From contig CAJQUW010007273.1 in NCBI GenBank assembly GCA_907163375.1, positions 301,001 through 365,000 on the forward strand: a stretch of 64,000 nt of DNA, in the 5' to 3' direction. Made by a program: the position numbers and the translations under genes. Under the pieces are notes generated by a model, which was not told where the DNA came from, did no database searches, and saw nothing but the letters and a program-made list of their open reading frames with translations. Below are positions 43,916-56,781 of this stretch, piece after piece. Numbering within the stretch: the first letter of the stretch is position 1; every line of letters begins with the position of its first letter. This DNA comes from Prostheceraeus crozeri (taxonomy: Eukaryota > Platyhelminthes > Polycladida > Euryleptidae).

Positions 43916-45140
43916 GTGCTCATTATCTTGAATATCTTGAAATATCCAAAAATTGACTTAAAATGCAGCAGGAAGCAATGATTGTTTAAGGAATTAGTGT
44001 ATTGATTTATTATCGCCATTTGAATAGACTGACTCCTGATGCCGGATATTTGCCATAACGACTTGCTTGCGGAAAGGAATGGTCTTAATGATGAAGCAGT
44101 TGTATATTTGGATGTCAAGCAAAATATTCATCATGATGGTGTCCACCCATCTGCCCATTAAGTCGAGACTTTCCCTTTTAACGTACTTTTTGCTAATCCG
44201 GAAGGTCTTCTGCCTTTCTGTATCGATTACATGATATTTACTTATCAAGTATGACGCTACTTGCGTGTTTAGTCATATTTACACTACGTAGTGCACAAAG
44301 TTAAAAGTTCTTGTTACATGCCCATAAAAAGAGGGTACAGCATACGTGATCTGAGAGTCTCGATAGAAAACCTCATAGCAAGCATTTTATTCTTTTGTTG
44401 AAGTTCAGGCAGCCTCCAGTAGCCAATTATTAGCTCGGTCTAATTTAATGTGAGTTTTATGCATATGCACGTGAAGCTCTGTACATATTGTGAAACTATT
44501 TCGTATAAGTTTATAAGTTTGGGTGGAGCATGGGTCCGACTGCTGATCGTCCAAATGATAAAGGACCCGAAACGAGACGCAAGCAGTCGATAATCTTGCT
44601 GATGGCCCCGTACATCTTTGTGCATTTTTTAATCAGGTGCAAGTATGCTTTTATTGCTTTATTACAGCCTGTCTTTGTTGCCCGAGTGAGCACCAAAAAT
44701 GAGGAGTTTCCAGATCTGCCAGAAGATATTTTCAGTATTGTAAATATTATTACAATACTGAATTAAGTAGATAGTAATTATTAAGCATAATAAATTCCTA
44801 TTATATTTTTATCTCACGTGATTGGACGCCAGCTACATTGATGTTGAATTATCCCTTTTATATTTCATTCAAATGCATTATCAAAAAATTAAAATTGATA
44901 TTAAATTTAAATTTCACAAGCAGCTTCGCAAGGCCCATAGTGTCTGATTATATCGGTTTGCAGAGAATTTAGCAGTGATTAGACTTATTACACGTGTCAT
45001 CTGGATTACTAGAGTTATGAGCAAGAGTAGAATCTCAAAAAGCACTGAAGATGCAATGGCTTTCCTGCTATTGTGAGTGGTGACGGAATCGCCAGGTAAG
45101 AAGTCAATCAAAAACTTCATTGTCATCACACTCGACCAAT
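43916..45140. other. No gene recognised; small hairpin at 44733-44760
   Basis: AT-rich. CAGTATTGTAA and TTACAATACTG form an 11-bp perfect stem with a 6-base loop at 44733-44760. The minus-strand frames of 76-84 codons near 43888-44248 are not recognised. Confidence 0.5.
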
Positions 45141-45445
45141 CAATTTAATGCGATTTTCCATGATGCCAACCAATTAAATGCGATTCTCCATGATGACAGC
45201 CAATTAAATGCAATTTTCCATGATGCCAACCAATTAAATGCGATTTTCCATGATGCCAACCAATTAAATGCGATTTTTCATGATGCCAACCAATTAAATG
45301 CAATTTTCCATGATGCCAACCAATTAAACGCAATTTTCCCATTTAAATGCAATTTTCCATGATCCCAATCAATTATATCCATTTATTCCGTGATCTCAAT
45401 CAATTAATTGCGGTTTTTTCACGGCTGCAATCAATTATTTTCATA
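45141..45445. repeat. 30-bp minisatellite
   Basis: Six regular units start at 45141, 45171, 45201, 45231, 45261 and 45291, each beginning CAATTAAATGC (first unit CAATTTAATGC) and ending CCATGATGCC AAC or a close variant. They are followed by a partial seventh and two or three decayed units to about 45445. Because 30 is a multiple of three, a plus frame reads repeated NQLNAIFHDA and a minus frame is also open. This is a property of the repeat, not proof of a protein. Unit-to-unit differences are mostly single transitions, so the array is fairly homogeneous. Confidence 0.93.
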
Positions 45446-48062: not shown

Positions 48063-49744
48063 TATTGCTTCTATTTTCAACAAGACGCGCACTTACTTAA
48101 TTACTGTGAGGTCACAATTATTCTTGTAAAGTAGATCAAAAGCAGTTGATTCGAATTCTTATTTCAGTCCCTCTGATATCCCTTGCTAAGACTTTGATCT
48201 GAAAAGAATACAAAATATGAAAGATAAGAATAGCATCAAAATGGCAACAAAATTAAACTGAAAATGCATCCTAGAAACAGTTTTCAATTCATTTTATGCA
48301 AAATTGAGTTTCCATAGCAAATGAGTCGAAATGAAGTTTTCATATCATGAAATGTCTTAATTCAAGTTGAATCTAAAATTAATCGAGGCAATTCAATTTA
48401 ATATTAATCATGGATGCCAACTGTGACAGATTTGAATCTCTCTATCTGTTAATGATGGAAAAGTAAGTAGATATAAATTTCATCTGAAGAAAATCTGATA
48501 TGGGTGCTGGATTCATTAGTTATTTACAAGTATATGATTGCTACATTTTGCTTAACTGCATTGATAAGCAAAATGCACTTGCCATCACACTTCAAAGAGG
48601 CTTAACATCTCTTTTGATTGGCTCTGATCTGGAGCGGGCAAAAAGTCCTCTCAAATGATTTGAGAGAAAATAGGACAGCCAGAAAATCGAGGACACTATC
48701 AAGAAATGTTATTCGTATTGAAAATACGTGCAAATTCAGATAAAAACATTGCGTACAAGCGAACAAGCTTTCTCAGGTCCAAGCAAGGAGTTTTCCACAG
48801 TAGCGCGGTGATATGACATATGGATCGAAAGATGAAGCATCGCTTGGATGAGAAACTGAGCTCTCTCGAGTTTATTTGGCTTCGGCAATTCCAGCCTCCT
48901 TACTTCTCCGAATTTGTTCAAGAGTTCTATAGAAAAGTCAGAAACTATCAAGCTGCTTTCGTTTCTTTTGTTTTGCGTGATCAGACAGTACACTATTGTT
49001 CTTGAAAACTAAGCAACGTTTGTGTTCGTTATGTCTCTGATAAAATGAGGAGTAGCTTGACCAAAGGAATGAAAAATTTGCAATAAGAAGTGCAGGTAGG
49101 TCTTTACACCGCAGATATCGCAACTCGCATGTTTATTCTTTCGATTCGCAGGTGGCTTAATACACTGCTTTAACTCTCTTATATGGTCGCTCCCCAAGGC
49201 TTCACTTAAGTTCCTTTTAAAGACATGATCAGTTCAATGAGGCAACATTTCGCGGCTATCAGTTCCCCATTCTTAGGACACGAATTCAAAAAAGGCTTTC
49301 TTGTGTCATTGTGATGACGCTCAAGAACTTTATGAACGAAAACCAAGTCAAACACAATTCGCCGTTCTCTATAGACACTAAGCCTAATTCAGAGAAACTA
49401 AGAATATTTGTCCTCTTGCGTATTCTTTTACTTTTGCATGTTGCAACCTTACACTCATGTGTAAGATGCCAAGAATTCGACCTAATTATAAGTCGGCACA
49501 GTGTCACAACGAGGTTGATTACTGTCTTCCTTGATGACTTGATAAAACTTCAATTGGTTATATTGATGAAGAAGACCAATAAAACTTGAAGCCTCTTTGC
49601 TTGTTATTAGTAGGAGCAGGAATTCCATAGCGAAAGACTTGGCAGCGAATTATTAAGGCGCAGATTTTAAAAACGGGTGTCAAAACCCAAGTTTTTCAAC
49701 CTGGGGCCTGGGTGTTGGGTATTTAACCCAGGTTTTTGCCCAAC
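48063..49744. other. No gene recognised
   Basis: AT-rich with short, unrecognised frames. Near 49680-49745 a run of CCTGGG/CCCAGG and AACCC/GGGTT words makes a small irregular palindrome next to the Gypsy insertion site. Confidence 0.5.
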
Positions 49745-49749
49745 CTGTA

Positions 49750-49940
49750 TGTAACGCCATCAATAAAATGACGTGATTCAAGCGGAGAGTGTATTGTGAA
49801 AGTCAAAGACCTGTGCATGGGAAGTCAGGCTCACAACCGATACTTATGCAAAATTAACACGATGACAAGCCAATCGACAACAATGAGTAATTACAGTCAC
49901 AATTTACTGGTTGGGCTCAGCGCCAAGCAATGGCGCAACA
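49750..49940 (-). repeat. 3' LTR of the Gypsy element
   Basis: 191 bp; in element orientation it opens TGTTGCGCCAT and closes GATGGCGTTACA. It matches the LTR at 54219-54409 at all but one position (A here against C near 54328). The integrase frame runs about 37 bases into it, to 49904. Confidence 0.96.
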
Positions 49941-50863
49941 TCCTTCCTCTCTGTCGAAGGATCAACGTCAGGATAGCGATGTACGGGCTTACGCTCACGT
50001 TTAGGCCGACTCTGCTCTGCTGGTACTAACTGAGCATCGTGGGCGGTCACAGTTCTCCCGTCTTCATGAATGACTAGTGAAGTATTGTTTCCTTGTCGGA
50101 CGATGAATTTAACTGGGAACACCGGAGCCTTTCGATGTGGTTTGTAGAGAAGTTCCTGCGTTGGTTCGAAGTGGGATACTATGGGACATTTGACGGTATA
50201 TCCGAGAAGTATTTCCGCAGGGGTCTTGCCTCCCCTCTGGGCCGTGTTGCGATGGACGAAGAGCAGACGATGAAGATACGAAGTCACAGTACTCTTTGCT
50301 GGATTGTAACACTTCAGGCCGTCCTTGATCACTCTTACCATTCTTTCCGCGAGACCGTTTGACTGAGGTCTGTACTCCGGGGAGTGGATCAACTGACAGC
50401 CACCGCGAGTCAGCCAATTTTTGAGTTCCATGTTTGTGAATTCTGGTGCGTTGTCACAAACCAAACACTCGGGGACACCGAAGCGAGCGAATAAGGTTCG
50501 AAGATACTCGATAACCGTCTGCGTCTGACGATTCTTGCAGATTTCAGCTTCTAACCATCCGCTGGTCGAATCGACGATGACCAGTATGTCTCCAGCAGCA
50601 CGATGATGCGCCCAGTCCATATGTAACCGACTCCACGGCTTCACACTCTTCGGCCAAGAGTGAGTGGTATCCGGGGCACCAAATCGAACGGCACGACATT
50701 CCTTGCATCCTTTCACGAACGCCTCCACTTGGGTATTCATTCCAGGCCAGAAAAATTCTCGTTGGATCAGACTTAAGGATGATTTGACGCCATTATGAGT
50801 CTGATGAGCAATTTCAATGATGCGGCGGTACAAAGACTGCGGGGGGGACGACTCGTGAGCCAA
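49904..50863 (-). pseudogene. Gypsy integrase
   Basis: The integrase part of the polyprotein, about 319 codons. Zinc-binding HHCC residues are H20, H23, C53 and C56 (numbering from 50863). The catalytic triad is D83 (LHMDWAH), D137 (VCDNAPEF) and E173 (NGLAERMVR), giving the standard DD35E spacing. The tail carries a basic segment (EQSRPKRERKPVHR) and ends inside the LTR. The domain itself looks intact. It is cut off from the upstream RNase H by a one-base shift in a run of seven C/G bases at about 50843-50849, a place where a sequencing error is also possible. No ATG is expected, as the protein would be released from Gag-Pol. Confidence 0.93.
49941..49953 (-). other. Polypurine tract of the Gypsy element
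   Basis: In element orientation CAGAGAGGAAGGA directly precedes the TG of the 3' LTR, the expected site and composition for plus-strand priming. An inverted second copy of this tract and its flank occurs at 52589-52709. Confidence 0.85.
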
Positions 50864-51581
50864 GTCTGATTACGTTATTGTCAACGGTCAATTGGAATGC
50901 CATTCTTTTGAATGGGCGTTCCCACCTTGAGACATTGCCCCACCTACCCGTGATTATTCGCTGAGAGAGTTCACATAAATACCTGTCCTTTTTAGTCTCT
51001 TGCTGTATTTCGATTAACGGGATGCACGGTTCACTAAAATGAATGGACGGGACCTTGGTGGAGTCTAGGCAGTCAACTCGCGACAGAGCGTCGGCAACAG
51101 TATTACTAGTACCTTTGATGTGTTTTATTGCGTAGTCATAGCGAAGCATTTTGAGTGAAAACTTCATGAGGCGAGGGGAAATTTCTGTTTTTATCTTGTC
51201 TTCTGGACCAAAAATGTGGACAAGGGGTTTATGATCTGTTTGAATGAGGAACTTTTTTCCTAACAAAAAATTTTCCAAGCGTCTGCAGGACCATAGAATC
51301 GCTAATCCTTCGCGCTCGATGTTGCTATAGCGAGATTCTGTTGGCGTTAGCTTGCGGGAAACATATAATATGGGGTGGTCATCTTGAGTCATCACGGCTC
51401 CGATGGCTTTACTAGACGCATCCACTGTTATCACAGTTGTTTTCGATAGTGAAAAAGGCTGGAGAACCGGTGCTGATGTTAGCTGTCGTTTCAATACTTG
51501 AAACTTCTGCTCGCATTCTTCATTCCATTCCAATTTTTCTTTTTTTGCAGCTTGATAGAGCGGTGCACAAATGTCGGAAAA
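50846..51581 (-). pseudogene. Gypsy RNase H and linker to integrase
   Basis: The frame from about 51533 down to the shift at about 50846 holds the RNase H domain of the Gypsy polyprotein, which removes RNA from the RNA-DNA hybrid. Visible marks are TVDASSKAIGAVMTQ (first acidic residue), LYVSRKLTPTE, the catalytic-region TDHKPL and the closing NTVADALSRVD. It is separated from the reverse transcriptase by an in-frame TGA at about 51580 (in RFIH-stop-FSDI). It ends in the C-run frameshift described for the integrase. Confidence 0.9.
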
Positions 51582-52208
51582 TCAATGAATAAATCTGCCG
51601 TAATAGGTGGCCAGTCCTAAAAAGCTTGTCAAATCTTTGGGCGTATTAGGAACTTCAGCATTTGCAATTTTTGAAGTTACTGACGAGTCAGGCTGGATAC
51701 CAGACGCACTGAAGATGAATCCTAAAAATCTCAGAGAATCAGATGATGAGACGCATTTTTCGGTGTTCACTGTGACATCATGCTCTCGGAGGGGTTTATA
51801 GACTTGGCTTAATCTCTTCTTTAGTTGGCGGTCGGATTCTGCACAAATCATGATATCGTCTTGGTATACAATGACGCCTTGTATGCCTTTCAAGAGTTGC
51901 TCCATGCACTTTTGAAAGATTGCAGTTGAGTTTTTCATTCCCATTTGCTAGCGATTGACACGAAATAATCCTTTATGTGTGTTGATCGTGGATAAAGAGG
52001 CAGCATAGTCATCTAGCTCAATTTGAGAATACGCAGATTTTAAATCAACTTTAGCAAATTTCGATGCATTCCCAATTTTCGAGAATATTTCTTCGACCGT
52101 CGGAAGAGGATAGGCATCCGATTAAATGTTGGAATTAATTGTTGCTTTGAAATCGATGCACATTCTATAGTCCCCATTCGATTTTTTCACCCAAACAACC
52201 GGGCTTGC
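51582..52208 (-). pseudogene. Gypsy reverse transcriptase, downstream part, two nonsense codons
   Basis: Resumes after the insertion with ASPVVWVKKSNGDYRMCIDF, the conserved fingers/palm entry. An in-frame TAA follows KATINSNI at 52122-52124, and a TAG replaces a residue just before QMGMKNS at about 51945-51950. The active-site motif is YQDD in VIVYQDDIMIC, and the connection region SFLGLATYYGRFI precedes a TGA at 51580. The upstream fingers (ARPVPIHLKERLDKELKQLE) lie beyond the insertion at about 52740-52800. Stops and insertion together make the enzyme non-functional in this copy. Confidence 0.92.
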
Positions 52209-52454
52209 TAAATGAGCTTTTTGGGTAAACGATTTCCCACACATATCACAAATGAACGGTCTGTCACCGGTGTGTATCCGCCGATGAATCGACAAACTGC
52301 TTGAAGATGCAAACGACTTCCCACATAACTCACATATGAATGGCTCTTCTCCAGTGTGCATCATGTGAATACTTATCAAGTTACTTGAATTGACAAACGA
52401 TTTCTCACCAATGAACAGTCTGTTATCAGTGTGCACTCGCCGATGCCCTATCAA
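52209..52454 (-). pseudogene. Captured C2H2 zinc-finger gene fragment inside Gypsy reverse transcriptase
   Basis: Two complete Krueppel-type fingers are readable on the minus strand: FICELCGKSFASSSSLSIHR with linker HTGDRPF, then FICDMCGKSFTQKAHL, cut before its histidine pair. A third, upstream finger (SNLISIHMMHTGEEPF) has lost its cysteine pair, and RRVHTD of a fourth is visible. Such fingers bind DNA in animal transcription factors. The last finger runs in frame into the reverse transcriptase (HL then ASPVVWV). No intron is visible, which suits an origin from a spliced or single-exon transcript. It is foreign to every Gypsy element I know. Confidence 0.88.
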
Positions 52455-52588
52455 TTTAGTTTATCCAGTTTATCCCGGAAGTCTCGCAACTCAACTTTCT
52501 GGCAACTCTTTTGATCACTGATACATTGCTGATCCTCATAAGCACCGGATTGACGCATGCAACTTTCTCGACACATTCCTGTGACATT
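52455..52588. other. Unidentified spacer within the Gypsy insertion
   Basis: About 134 bp between the zinc-finger piece and the inverted Gypsy fragment. I see no motif. It could be 5' untranslated or coding sequence of the zinc-finger source gene, or DNA from elsewhere. Confidence 0.5.
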
Positions 52589-52709
52589 ACTGTGACCGCC
52601 CACGATGCTCAGTTAGTACCAGCAGAGCAGAGTCGGCCTAAACGTGAGCGTAAGCCCGTACATCGCTATCCTGACGTTGATCCTTCGACAGAGAGGAGGG
52701 ATGTTGCGC
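52589..52709 (+). repeat. Inverted copy of the Gypsy pol 3' end, polypurine tract and first 8 LTR bases
   Basis: These 121 bp equal the reverse complement of 49933-50053 at all but one base (GAGGAGGGA against GAGGAAGGA). The segment stops 8 bases into the LTR (TGTTGCGC). A plus-strand frame through it repeats the integrase tail (EQSRPKRERKPVHR). It forms the second half of the insertion that splits the reverse transcriptase. Confidence 0.93.
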
Positions 52710-54056
52710 AGGTGGAGTGCGAAATTGGGGTGATAATTCCTTGGATCTCAAGCTGTTTTAATTCCTTATCAAGCCGCTCCTTCAAGTGAATCGGGACGGG
52801 ACGCGCTTTAAAGAATTTTAATGACTGATTTTCATCTATCAGATGGATGCTAGTCGAGAATCCTTTGATGGTGGGCAAAATTTTACTTTCCTCGTTAGAG
52901 AAGGTGCAAACGTGAGAGCGTTCCTTGTTTATTAAATCTCGCCCAAGCAGTACGAAATCACGATCTGTGTCGATAACTAAAAATTTGGCATCATGAGTAA
53001 CTCCTTCCCTCATAGCGGTGGTGTTGAGTTGCCCTAATACCCGCATTTGTGAGCGATCATAATTAGTGGGCACGAGGTTCGTGCTAGCCAAGCTGGGAGA
53101 TCCTAGCTTTTCCCATTGCGTTCTAGACATAAGAGACATTGCAGCGCCGGTGTCCACTTCGAAGTCTAACCGAATGCCATGTGATCCAACCTCTAAAGTT
53201 TGTATGATTTTTTCAGAATCTTTCGAGTCAACAGTGAAAATATCAATGTTGTGAGTCTCGCGAGCTTCAGATCTCGAGTTTTGAAATTGTTGATAATTAC
53301 CGCCTTTTGGTTTACTTCTGCAACATTTTGCGTAGTGATTTAGTTTTCCACATTTGTGGCATGTGCTCCCGAAGGCCGGACATTGTCTCGGTTTGTGTTT
53401 TGACGAGCAGTTACTGCAACTGAAATCTCTGACTGATTGTCTGCGGCCGAAAAAGCTATCTACATGTACATGTTCATCGGTCGCTTTGACATTATTAATG
53501 TTGACAAAATCAGCCACTTGTGCTGACATCTGACAGAAGTCGATGATGTCTGACATTTTATTGCTTGGGTTCAACTGCAGTTTTTCGAGAATTTTGAGCT
53601 TCAGGTGGTTGTCTCTCAGTCCCGCGATGAATCTTAGCTTTACTAATTCCTCACTTGGGTTGCTTGATTTCAACTGGTCCCAATGACAGTGTTGAGCTGA
53701 TTCATTTAGTCGTGATAAAAAGTCGACTTCACTTTCGTCGCCGTTTTGTGATATTTGTAGGAAGTTCGTGCGGTCAGCGACGAGCAAACGCTTTCTAGGT
53801 TCGACGTAGTCAAAGATTGTCTTCTTTATATCTTGGAATAGGGATTTTTCAATGTTCTGACCGGGCATCATAGATACCAACTTTAATAGGGCTTGGGTCC
53901 ACATCTTTCTAAAAATCTGTCCGTTTGTGGAGAAATGCCGGATGTTCCTAACTTATCTTCAATTTCTTTCGTTCGGCAATGTGCCTCAAATGCGATTATC
54001 CAATAGTGACAGTCTTCAGCGCTGTCAAGCGATAAGTTGTCAGATTTTCCAGACAT
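52710..54056 (-). pseudogene. Gypsy gag, protease and start of reverse transcriptase
   Basis: The likely gag start is the ATG at 54056 (MSGKSDNLSLDSAEDC). This frame is lost by a one-base shift near 53895-53905, and the main frame continues from there. Numbering from 53904: a capsid-like helical region at 1-150; two zinc knuckles, C163-C166-H170-C175 and C182-C185-H190-C195, which bind RNA in Gag; the aspartic protease active site DTGA at 251-254 after LDFEV; and a start of reverse transcriptase at ARPVPIHLKERLD. The frame breaks off at the insertion at 52710 in ITPISHST. Gag and Pol seem to share one frame, as in several Gypsy lineages. Confidence 0.9.
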
Positions 54057-54200
54057 CAGTGATTAATTTGCTATGAAAGCTAAATATTTTAAAACTCTGA
54101 CAGTGAACTCGCTCAGGGAAAAATCAAGGATAAGAGGACAACTTACCGAAAATGATAACGCCCAGGTCAATTGAATAACAATGTCGATAATCAGGTCCGA

Positions 54201-54217
54201 ATCTGTTCCTGACACCA
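54201..54217 (-). other. Primer-binding site of the Gypsy element
   Basis: One base inside the 5' LTR the element reads TGGTGTCAGGAACAGAT. TGGTGTCAGGA is complementary to the 3' end of animal leucine tRNAs (TCCTGACACCA), so priming by tRNA-Leu is likely. The last six bases match less well. Confidence 0.65.
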
Positions 54218-54218
54218 C

Positions 54219-54409
54219 TGTAACGCCATCAATAAAATGACGTGATTCAAGCGGAGAGTGTATTGTGAAAGTCAAAGACCTGTGCATGGGAAGTCAGGCT
54301 CACAACCGATACTTATGCAACATTAACACGATGACAAGCCAATCGACAACAATGAGTAATTACAGTCACAATTTACTGGTTGGGCTCAGCGCCAAGCAAT
54401 GGCGCAACA
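54219..54409 (-). repeat. 5' LTR of the Gypsy element
   Basis: 191 bp, one base different from the 3' LTR at 49750-49940. It would carry the promoter for the genomic RNA; I see no convincing TATA box in its AT-poor start. Confidence 0.96.
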
Positions 54410-54420
54410 CTGTATATAGT

Positions 54421-54602
54421 AATATATTTTATATAGAATAGAATAGAATAGAATAACGTATATTTTCGAATTTCCTCAATAATGAGAAGCGTGAGGAATG
54501 TACAACATTTGAAAGTAAAAACACTTTTCATTACAAGACAAAAATAAATAGAAAGTCAACAACAACAACAAAAGTTACAAACAACAAGTCAGTTTACAAA
54601 AG
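54421..54602 (-). other. 3' UTR and microsatellite tail of the LINE
   Basis: About 180 bp following the LINE stop codon and ending, in element orientation, in four TATTC/TTCTA units (plus strand ATAGAATAGAATAGAATA near 54435). Short-period tails instead of poly(A) are usual in CR1/L2-type LINEs, where they take part in target-primed copying. Confidence 0.75.
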
Positions 54603-56781
54603 TTACTTTAGGCTGAAACCGCTGTTTGATAATTTAGCCATCGATGTCATAAAGGTTTTGGAGCATGCGACTGTCTGAGACAAAGGGAGTTTGTATTTTT
54701 GTGAGCGAGTCATCACTGGGGGCACAAGATGATGAAGAAGGTGGTTTTCGTCATTTACTGCACAAAGAAATTGCTTAAATCCCAAAATCATGCGTCTGTA
54801 GTCTAAAGGTATGAACTTTTCACATTCACAGTGTGGTCCACAAATTACACGGTGGCATCGACTCTGCACTCTCTCTATTGATGAAGACAATCCAGCATTC
54901 AAATTTACAAAAATCGGCGCGCAATATTCTAAGATGGATCGAATACAGCCGTTATATATTTGAACCAGAAAGTCATTCGATACATACGGTTTAAGACGTC
55001 GTAGTACATTGATGCGAGATGTTGCCCTTTTTACAATATAATTTACATGTGAGGACCATTTCATCTTACTGTCAAAAATAACACCTAACAGTTTCATCTC
55101 ATCTTTAATTGGAATATTCTGAAGGAAATTGTCGGAAAAGAAAATGCTACTTCTAGATTTGTGGATGTACATTTGACATCTTTTTGAGTGATTTATGCAC
55201 ATTTTGTTTGCTACAGACCATGAAGAAAATTGTGAAAAAATGCCACTCACATTACTGTTCATGGAGCTCACAGTTTCAAATACAATTCCACAAAGTATAA
55301 AATCATCAGCATATTTGATGACGATGGAGTCACTTTTATTACACCATAAAAAATCAGACATATAATATGCAAAGATATAAGGACCCAAAGACGAGCCCTG
55401 CGGGATTCCACTTACAACTTGTGTCACTGAACTGCATGAGTCTTTCCACTTGATTCTTTGAAACCTATCGGACAAGTAGTTCTGCACAAAGTTTAACAAA
55501 AAAGGTGAAAAATTATCGCGCACCATTTTTTCTATGAGTACTTTGTGAGACAGTCTATCGAAGCCTTTAGTAAGATCGAGAGCACACACATGACATGCCT
55601 TAACGTCAGAACGATCTAGGTGAGACAACACAAATTCCTGCAAGCTTAATAATGCGCAGGCTGTCGAACTTTGCGGTCGAAACCCAAACTGAGAAGAGTC
55701 ATACCGAGTTAGGAATTCAGACTTAACGTGCTTCATCAGACACTTTTCAAATATGCGTTCAAGCATTGGTAGCTTTGCGATGGGTCGCGTGTCATTCAAT
55801 TTTGGGGGATACGATTTGGGAAAAGGACAAATATCGGCTGTTTTCCATCTCATTGGCAAATTGGCATCCTCAAGACACTTGTTAAAGATATAACAGATTG
55901 GGTACGATAGAAATTGGGCAAATTTTAACAAGGCAATATTTGGAACCTTATCTGAGCCACAACCTGATCGAGGATTAACTTGAGTCAATTTTTCTTCAAC
56001 TTCATGCAAACCAAATTCAAATGGAACGACATATGGGACTTGAAAGCGCACAAATGGATCATCTATCATCACAGATGCATAAAAATCATTTAAATAGCTC
56101 AATGCTTGTTGTAGATCCATTCCAGGACTGCAGTTTGGGAGCCAATCATTATTACAACACTTATTCATAACACATTTATACACATTCCATGGAGATTTGC
56201 CAGATGAAGCCATATACTGGCCCCAGGATTGTTTAGCACTCACTATTGCGATTTTTACTTTCTCCCGGTAATGATAGTATAGACTCCAATTTTTACATCT
56301 GTATGCTTCAAAACGCTTGTTTATTAGAACCTTTATAGTTGCATTGATCCATGGTTTATCACGAGATGTCTGCTTTATGATATTCGATGGTAGCATTTGA
56401 AGAGCCACGTCAAGATGATAATAGAAGATATTTGCACAATCGTCAAGAGAGAGTTTGCTGAAAATTTTATTCCAGTCCAGTGATTGCAGATAGGTTTTGC
56501 TCGAATGCAGGTTAGAGTCTCTAAAATCATAAACCTTCACAACAGATTCAGAAGATGCAATATTTGATTTCGGCTTCAGAAGTAGGACTTCATGATCACT
56601 ACAAGCTAGGGGAGGAAAATGTTGCACGTCGAGATAACGATCAACATGTGAAACAGGCACGAGGATTAAATCCAACATAGCCAAATATGAGGCACGAGGA
56701 TAAAAAAACATAGCCAAGGACATATACAAATAGATTAAGTCATGAGCCGATGACAGAACCCTTTGGGATGCCACCCTTTAT
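54603..56781 (-). CDS. LINE (CR1/L2/Jockey-group) reverse transcriptase, 5'-truncated, long intact frame
   Basis: About 723 codons are open with no ATG start (first codon GTG after an in-frame TAA), so the copy is truncated in its endonuclease. The enzyme nicks DNA and copies its own RNA at the nick. Residue positions from 56774: endonuclease remnant with LDLILVP (34-40) and the catalytic SDH (59-61); reverse transcriptase with FGFRPQSST (363-371), motif A LDLTKGFD (399-406), motif B GIPQGSSLGP (456-465) and motif C YADD (489-492). A thumb and C-terminal part follow, with ILEYCAPIFVN and a cysteine/histidine-rich HRVICGPHCECEKF segment. All core residues are present and no frameshift is seen, so the truncation is the main visible defect. 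Its clade within the CR1/Jockey group is unresolved. Confidence 0.9.

Follow-up and report, generated by a model that had tools for sequence, protein, structure and literature searches.

The window, i.e., the whole stretch of 64,000 nt of Prostheceraeus crozeri DNA analysed here (G000:C6047:301001-365000, from an assembly of 2.05 Gb), carries on its minus strand an LTR retrotransposon whose reverse transcriptase (RT) region is interrupted by a composite insert (Table 1). Pfam domains along the minus strand follow the order protease, RT, RNase H and integrase, typical of Gypsy; the LTRs have the form TGTT...ACA, the 3' LTR is preceded by a polypurine tract (GAGAGGAAGGA) and the copy is enclosed by a target-site duplication. 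By pol order, LTR ends, polypurine tract and target duplication, the element is a Ty3/Gypsy (Metaviridae) LTR retrotransposon. The stretch directly after the 5' LTR, TGGTGTCAGG.., may hold a candidate tRNA primer-binding site, as judged by eye. Eighteen private substitutions were counted in the window copy over at most 3,262 compared positions, in line with an insertion of the element that would be recent but not new.

Other repeats were recorded around the element. A 724-aa reverse transcriptase frame (54603-56777, minus strand; Pfam RVT_1, E 1.1e-22), of non-LTR type by reading, has the Gypsy 5' LTR just beyond its 3' side, beside a GAATA-type simple repeat near position 54440. A tandem array with a 30-bp unit (6.8 copies, 91% matches) occupies positions 45136-45339, and a short dispersed repeat, made of about 190 bp and 64 bp, lies at 48873-49173; its 190-bp part was 73-76% identical to dozens of places, with 40 of 185 candidates scored. 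Outside the repeats at about 48.87-49.17 and 49.57-49.70 kb, the flank at 48.2-49.7 kb had no match but the window itself among the candidates scored. An Rfam search of the 64,000-nt window at gathering scores found nothing.

Table 1. Positions in the window of the Gypsy copy, its reading frames and the pieces of the insert.
Feature	Position	Strand	Basis
Ty3/Gypsy copy with insert	49750-54409	-	Self-comparison, LTR and flank letters, Pfam
5' LTR, 191 bp	54219-54409	-	Self-comparison; 1/191 positions unlike 3' LTR
3' LTR, 191 bp	49750-49940	-	Self-comparison and LTR letters
Target-site duplication CTGTA, 5 bp	54410-54414 (5' side) and 49745-49749 (other side)		Flank letters
Upstream frame: zinc knuckle of gag type (by eye), aspartic protease, pre-RT stretch	52666-53952	-	ORF list, Pfam
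Chimeric open frame, 112 aa: zinc-finger part and 28 RT residues	52122-52460	-	ORF list; finger pattern
Left junction, 4-nt match TTGC common to element and host zinc-finger sequence	52205-52208		Letter comparison
Host exon, zinc-finger part with three C2H2 fingers (degenerate, complete, truncated)	52209-52460	-	94% to G000:C1353:212317-212666; finger pattern
Same host exon, 5' part, to conserved 3' splice site (CAG/GTGC)	52461-52545	-	Homology to C1353
7 bp, source not found; probably the transcript's upstream exon	52546-52552	-	Joint with transposon end exact only in insert
28 bp, end of a TIR DNA transposon with dispersed copies; probably the transcript's first exon or promoter	52553-52580	-	28/28 identity
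8 bases without template in the neighbouring pieces	52581-52588		Short repeat CTGTGAC..CTGTGAC with next bases
Inverted piece: 3' end of pol, polypurine tract and initial 8 bases of LTR	52589-52709	+	120/121 to 49933-50053; two other copies at 100%
Right junction, 6-nt match TTGCGC common to LTR start and interrupted RT site	52704-52709		Letter comparison

The interruption of the RT pointed out in the earlier note is real in the assembly. It lies near the RT start, at a site that is ungapped in other copies of the family (..GGGCTTGC/GCAGGTGG.., the slash marking the point of insertion), and no element bases were lost there. The extent first given for the insert holds at its core, with a net length of 499 bp (52209-52707), but the end noted at 52709 includes 2 bases common to both sides. 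Among pieces of 15 other copies, collected from 31 loci, the RT is uninterrupted in all 12 with both site flanks readable, the site itself being deleted in the remaining three (C13950, C10413 and C4927). For a 16th copy (C1708, 88-90% identical) and seven more distant relatives, the two site flanks, matched in search tables only, were either adjacent or up to about 26 bp apart, thus no such insert was seen in them. The initial homology search, with 40 of 274 candidates scored, gives by itself a lower bound. Across the patch, the nearest relative showed no clear switch of the kind expected if two parental Gypsy copies had recombined there.

The finger part reads in frame into the RT, as previously described (52460-52122), although one such join in three would be in frame by chance, and the frame closes after a further 28 codons. 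With regard to the two C2H2 fingers formerly recognised, only one is complete by pattern, whereas Pfam does report two zf-C2H2 stretches; by eye, the cysteine pair is missing from the finger before the complete one, and the last finger breaks off ahead of its two histidines, the truncated finger being still recognisable since Pfam reports the two stretches. In the 3.35 kb examined of the related gene on contig C1353, this pattern recognises ten fingers. The open frame from finger to RT had raised the prospect of a Gypsy lineage propagating with a captured and domesticated DNA-binding module. Such an element should show its junctions in at least two copies, and each junction was found once in the 2.05-Gb assembly (up to 3 mismatches), in the window copy. 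Moreover, the insert holds one whole finger, the 12 readable copies are empty, pol is cut, the chimeric frame ends early in the RT, and the upstream frame (52666-53952) enters the insert for about 13 codons before meeting a stop. A chimeric lineage is thus hardly credible and the capture of a module is not borne out: nothing points to a function or to spread, and the patched copy is a single fossil of a known type of accident, not a spreading new element.

As to its content, the insert combines what appears to be a piece of a spliced host zinc-finger mRNA with an inverted piece of the element's own end. The zinc-finger homology was confirmed and covers a host exon at 52205-52545, antisense to the plus strand and 94% identical to C1353:212317-212666; when the host part was globally aligned with this locus, 10 substitutions were counted in 349 columns, along with 11 gap columns, of which one is an end effect. 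A search for the host source thus yielded a best locus, but not the exact source transcript, which is absent from the assembly, the identity being 94% with several small indels. For the non-finger part of the exon three candidates were found, and all were scored, namely the window itself, C1353:212.5 kb (92%) and C1353:203.8 kb (72%). The 134 bp beyond the fingers, originally taken as a spacer, are not neutral and consist mostly of 5' sequence of the same zinc-finger transcript: the 5' part of the host exon is followed by the 7 bp, the transposon end and the 8 apparently untemplated bases (Table 1).

The homology to C1353 ends at CAG/GTGC, and an identical CAG/GTGC is present in the paralogue at C1353:203.8 kb, where similarity holds over the exon but the bases ahead of CAG have diverged, thus identifying this position as a 3' splice site. 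Since the host homology stops at this conserved site, with different sequence beyond, a spliced RNA is the most likely source; with this one boundary as basis, the host template was probably a spliced mRNA in the sense of the element. Upstream of the boundary, a search with 20 letters spanning the joint between the 7 bp and the transposon end gave one exact match, the insert, whereas the next best of 71 has 2 mismatches and differs beyond. Nine of the 70 non-exact matches (2 or 3 mismatches) were read in their surroundings and 61 were judged from the 20 letters; none of the nine runs on into the zinc-finger exon as the insert does. The core of the transposon end was likewise not found in 60 kb of C1353 (205001-265000, up to 4 mismatches), nor anywhere on C1353 (up to 2 mismatches). 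The upstream exon was therefore not located in the assembly, and the true zinc-finger source is probably an allele or paralogue missing from it. This fits with the first, degenerate finger, which keeps a single frame in the insert and is frame-shifted in the same stretch of C1353. Because the source transcript is absent and the joint between the 7 bp and the 28 bp is exact only in the insert, the exon status of the joint to the transposon end is presumptive, and the joint could alternatively represent one more template jump.

The core of this transposon end was found at 65 places in the assembly (up to 2 mismatches), one of them being the insert. Three copies were read (L064, L065 and L066) and all have inverted ends of 48-57 bp, with the end sequence ACGTATGCAACTTTCTCGACACATTCCTCGACA... 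Mutator-like (MULE) transposons possess terminal inverted repeats and produce target duplications of 9-11 bp. A 9-bp flank repeat was seen by eye in L066, which suggests a possible Mutator-like element, with none clear in L064 and L065. About a dozen contigs carry matches to the transposon end as oppositely oriented pairs, with about 3 to 36 kb between the two, so that long copies may exist.

Also confirmed was the inverted piece of 121 bp (52589-52709 against 50053-49933), which repeats the 3' end of the element itself. At its single mismatch, all six of the other copies compared by eye have the base of the inverted piece, so that this piece would have been copied before the change in the element's own end, or from another molecule. 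The identities of the pieces are far beyond chance. As for the outer junctions, matches of at least 4 nt (left) and at least 6 nt (right) have chances of 0.018 and 0.0018, respectively, when positions on one strand of the element are paired at random. On the sense strand of the element, TTGCGC occurs only at the two LTR starts, and could thus have placed the stop of the inverted piece by microhomology alone. The argument that a stop just inside the LTR betrays template switching is weak for this reason, but switching itself is the best supported reading on other grounds (see below). The inner joint to the inverted piece carries untemplated bases. When the ends of the whole patch are considered, only TTGC is repeated, there is no target duplication of at least 5 bp, and about 8 bases are untemplated.

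Each of the 15 other Gypsy copies was examined in part, and internal deletions, differing from copy to copy, were observed in five of them (L069, L070, L004, L016 and L014). Three occurred at direct matches of 11, 8 and 9 nt (one base missing in the 9-nt case), one at an imperfect match and one without any match. The chance of a match of at least 8 nt is 1.6e-4 for a random pair; with three of the five deletions at direct matches, loss at short matches is not rare in this Gypsy family. Such deletions would be an expected trace of template jumping, and end joining could also yield all five. In C5097 and C4122 homology was lost before the 5' end of the element.

That unrelated reads were joined by the assembler inside a repetitive Gypsy copy has to be considered, the more so as a second haplotype contig of the locus was not seen among the 40 of 185 candidates scored. 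However, a false join would need to return to the same RT base with 4- and 6-nt matches at the two ends, to break homology at a splice site and to include an ancestral-state copy of the element's end, and the contig continues on both sides. Misassembly is unlikely on these features, to the point that we give it little weight. Even less probable is the occurrence of two or more independent insertions in one place, with the inverted piece arriving first and the host piece later, or the reverse. The different source of the pieces would agree with separate arrivals, but both ends of the patch share TTGC at an otherwise intact site, which one event explains; furthermore, no target duplication surrounds either piece alone (by eye) and a copy with a single piece was found in none of the 12 readable copies.

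We propose that the insert arose by template switching while the Gypsy copy was being reverse-transcribed, during minus-strand synthesis, a reading to which we assign a probability of roughly 60%. It is the best supported one because the host part looks like a spliced mRNA in the sense of the element and the outer matches are short; indeed, minus-strand copying of an mRNA requires the host part and the element to have the same sense, as is the case here (1 in 2 by chance). The growing minus-strand DNA would have left the element RNA at TTGC in the RT region, paired at the same TTGC with a spliced host zinc-finger mRNA packaged in the same particle, and copied about 340 nt of one exon toward the mRNA 5' end. 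Copying would then have crossed the splice junction into the sequence of the DNA-transposon end, with the addition of a few untemplated bases, before about 115 nt were copied in turn from minus-strand DNA that the element had already made (3' end of pol, polypurine tract and U3 start). Return through TTGCGC to the still uncopied element RNA would have occurred exactly at the point of departure, and integration of the finished chimera by way of its LTRs would have produced the 5-bp target duplication.

The inverted piece calls for a template of minus-strand sense, for which the element's own newly made minus-strand DNA is the nearest candidate; as a third template within the particle, it would complete the series. 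The exact return, for its part, might be explained by the loss of used RNA behind the polymerase: it fits a genomic RNA consumed up to that point, and fits a repaired break equally well. The full sequence of events, in which one minus-strand cDNA read its own genomic RNA, then a spliced host mRNA beginning in a DNA-transposon end, then its own minus-strand DNA, and resumed at the very base where it had stopped, is accordingly put forward as a tentative reconstruction, possible but less than an even bet.

The main rival to template switching places the patch after integration: a double-strand break in the resident element would have been filled by microhomology end joining with a zinc-finger cDNA (or RNA-templated) patch and with a copy of the element's own 3' end, located 2.1 kb away. 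The exact return without loss, the short matches at the ends and the about 8 untemplated bases are features of end joining, and spliced cDNA is a known donor of such patches (PMC5110952). On the other hand, repair presupposes that a different reverse transcriptase had made the host cDNA, as well as a second templated piece from the same element, and predicts neither the sense of the mRNA piece nor the microhomology deletions of the family. We consider it rather unlikely, while granting it more weight than any other competing explanation.

LTR-mediated retroposition in metazoans has reportedly been treated by Tan et al. 2016 (Genome Res). In this process host mRNA is joined into LTR elements at short similarities, as described in PMC5408686, and both an apparent spliced-mRNA origin (at one boundary) and short similarity at the outer junctions are found here. 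The two cases have in common a partial host mRNA in an LTR retrotransposon with short similarities at its joints, and would share template switching and integration through the LTRs, whereas the window patch differs in also containing the element's 3' end in inverted orientation and in resuming at the exact base left. The chimera bears LTRs and the CTGTA repeat at its ends, and the patch may precede or follow integration. In retroviruses, host-RNA patches are acquired by microhomology with a tertiary template, as PMC4997597 reports. The likeness would extend to a co-packaged host RNA patched into the genome, the microhomology and the tertiary template; unlike retroviral patch repair, however, the present case concerns a genomic Gypsy copy, and one of its templates would be the element's own minus-strand DNA.

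The LTR template-switch complexes of Triticeae are likewise explained by abnormal switching in reverse transcription and bear target duplications at the ends, but consist of two fused elements, with neither host mRNA nor an inverted piece mentioned in the passages on them (PMC1950507). Class 2 templated sequence insertions of humans are attributed to double-strand break repair (PMC5110952). The absence of a duplication of at least 5 bp, the microhomology and the untemplated bases by which this class is recognised are all seen in our patch; the resemblance includes the distant origin of the sequence, sometimes from spliced cDNA, whereas these insertions are not tied to the replication of an LTR element (PMC5110952). 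A search of open-licence papers found no like case, which is not to claim its absence from print. Owing to the apparently spliced, same-sense mRNA piece and to the junctions, the patch is best placed, as judged from its sequence, as a new example of LTR-mediated retroposition or of retroviral "patch" recombination, the unusual part being the inverted piece of the element's own end.

The patched copy shows no new function, and its value lies in being a well-resolved single case of the pickup of a host transcript by an LTR retrotransposon, in which the splice boundary points to an RNA template, the matches at the outer junctions can be read, and an order of events follows from the inverted own-end piece. 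If the three-template reading is true, the copy would be a fossil recording the order of the strand switches, and the used RNA would already have been removed behind the polymerase; if population data placed the patch before integration, the genome would bear direct witness to a Gypsy reverse transcriptase switching among several templates.
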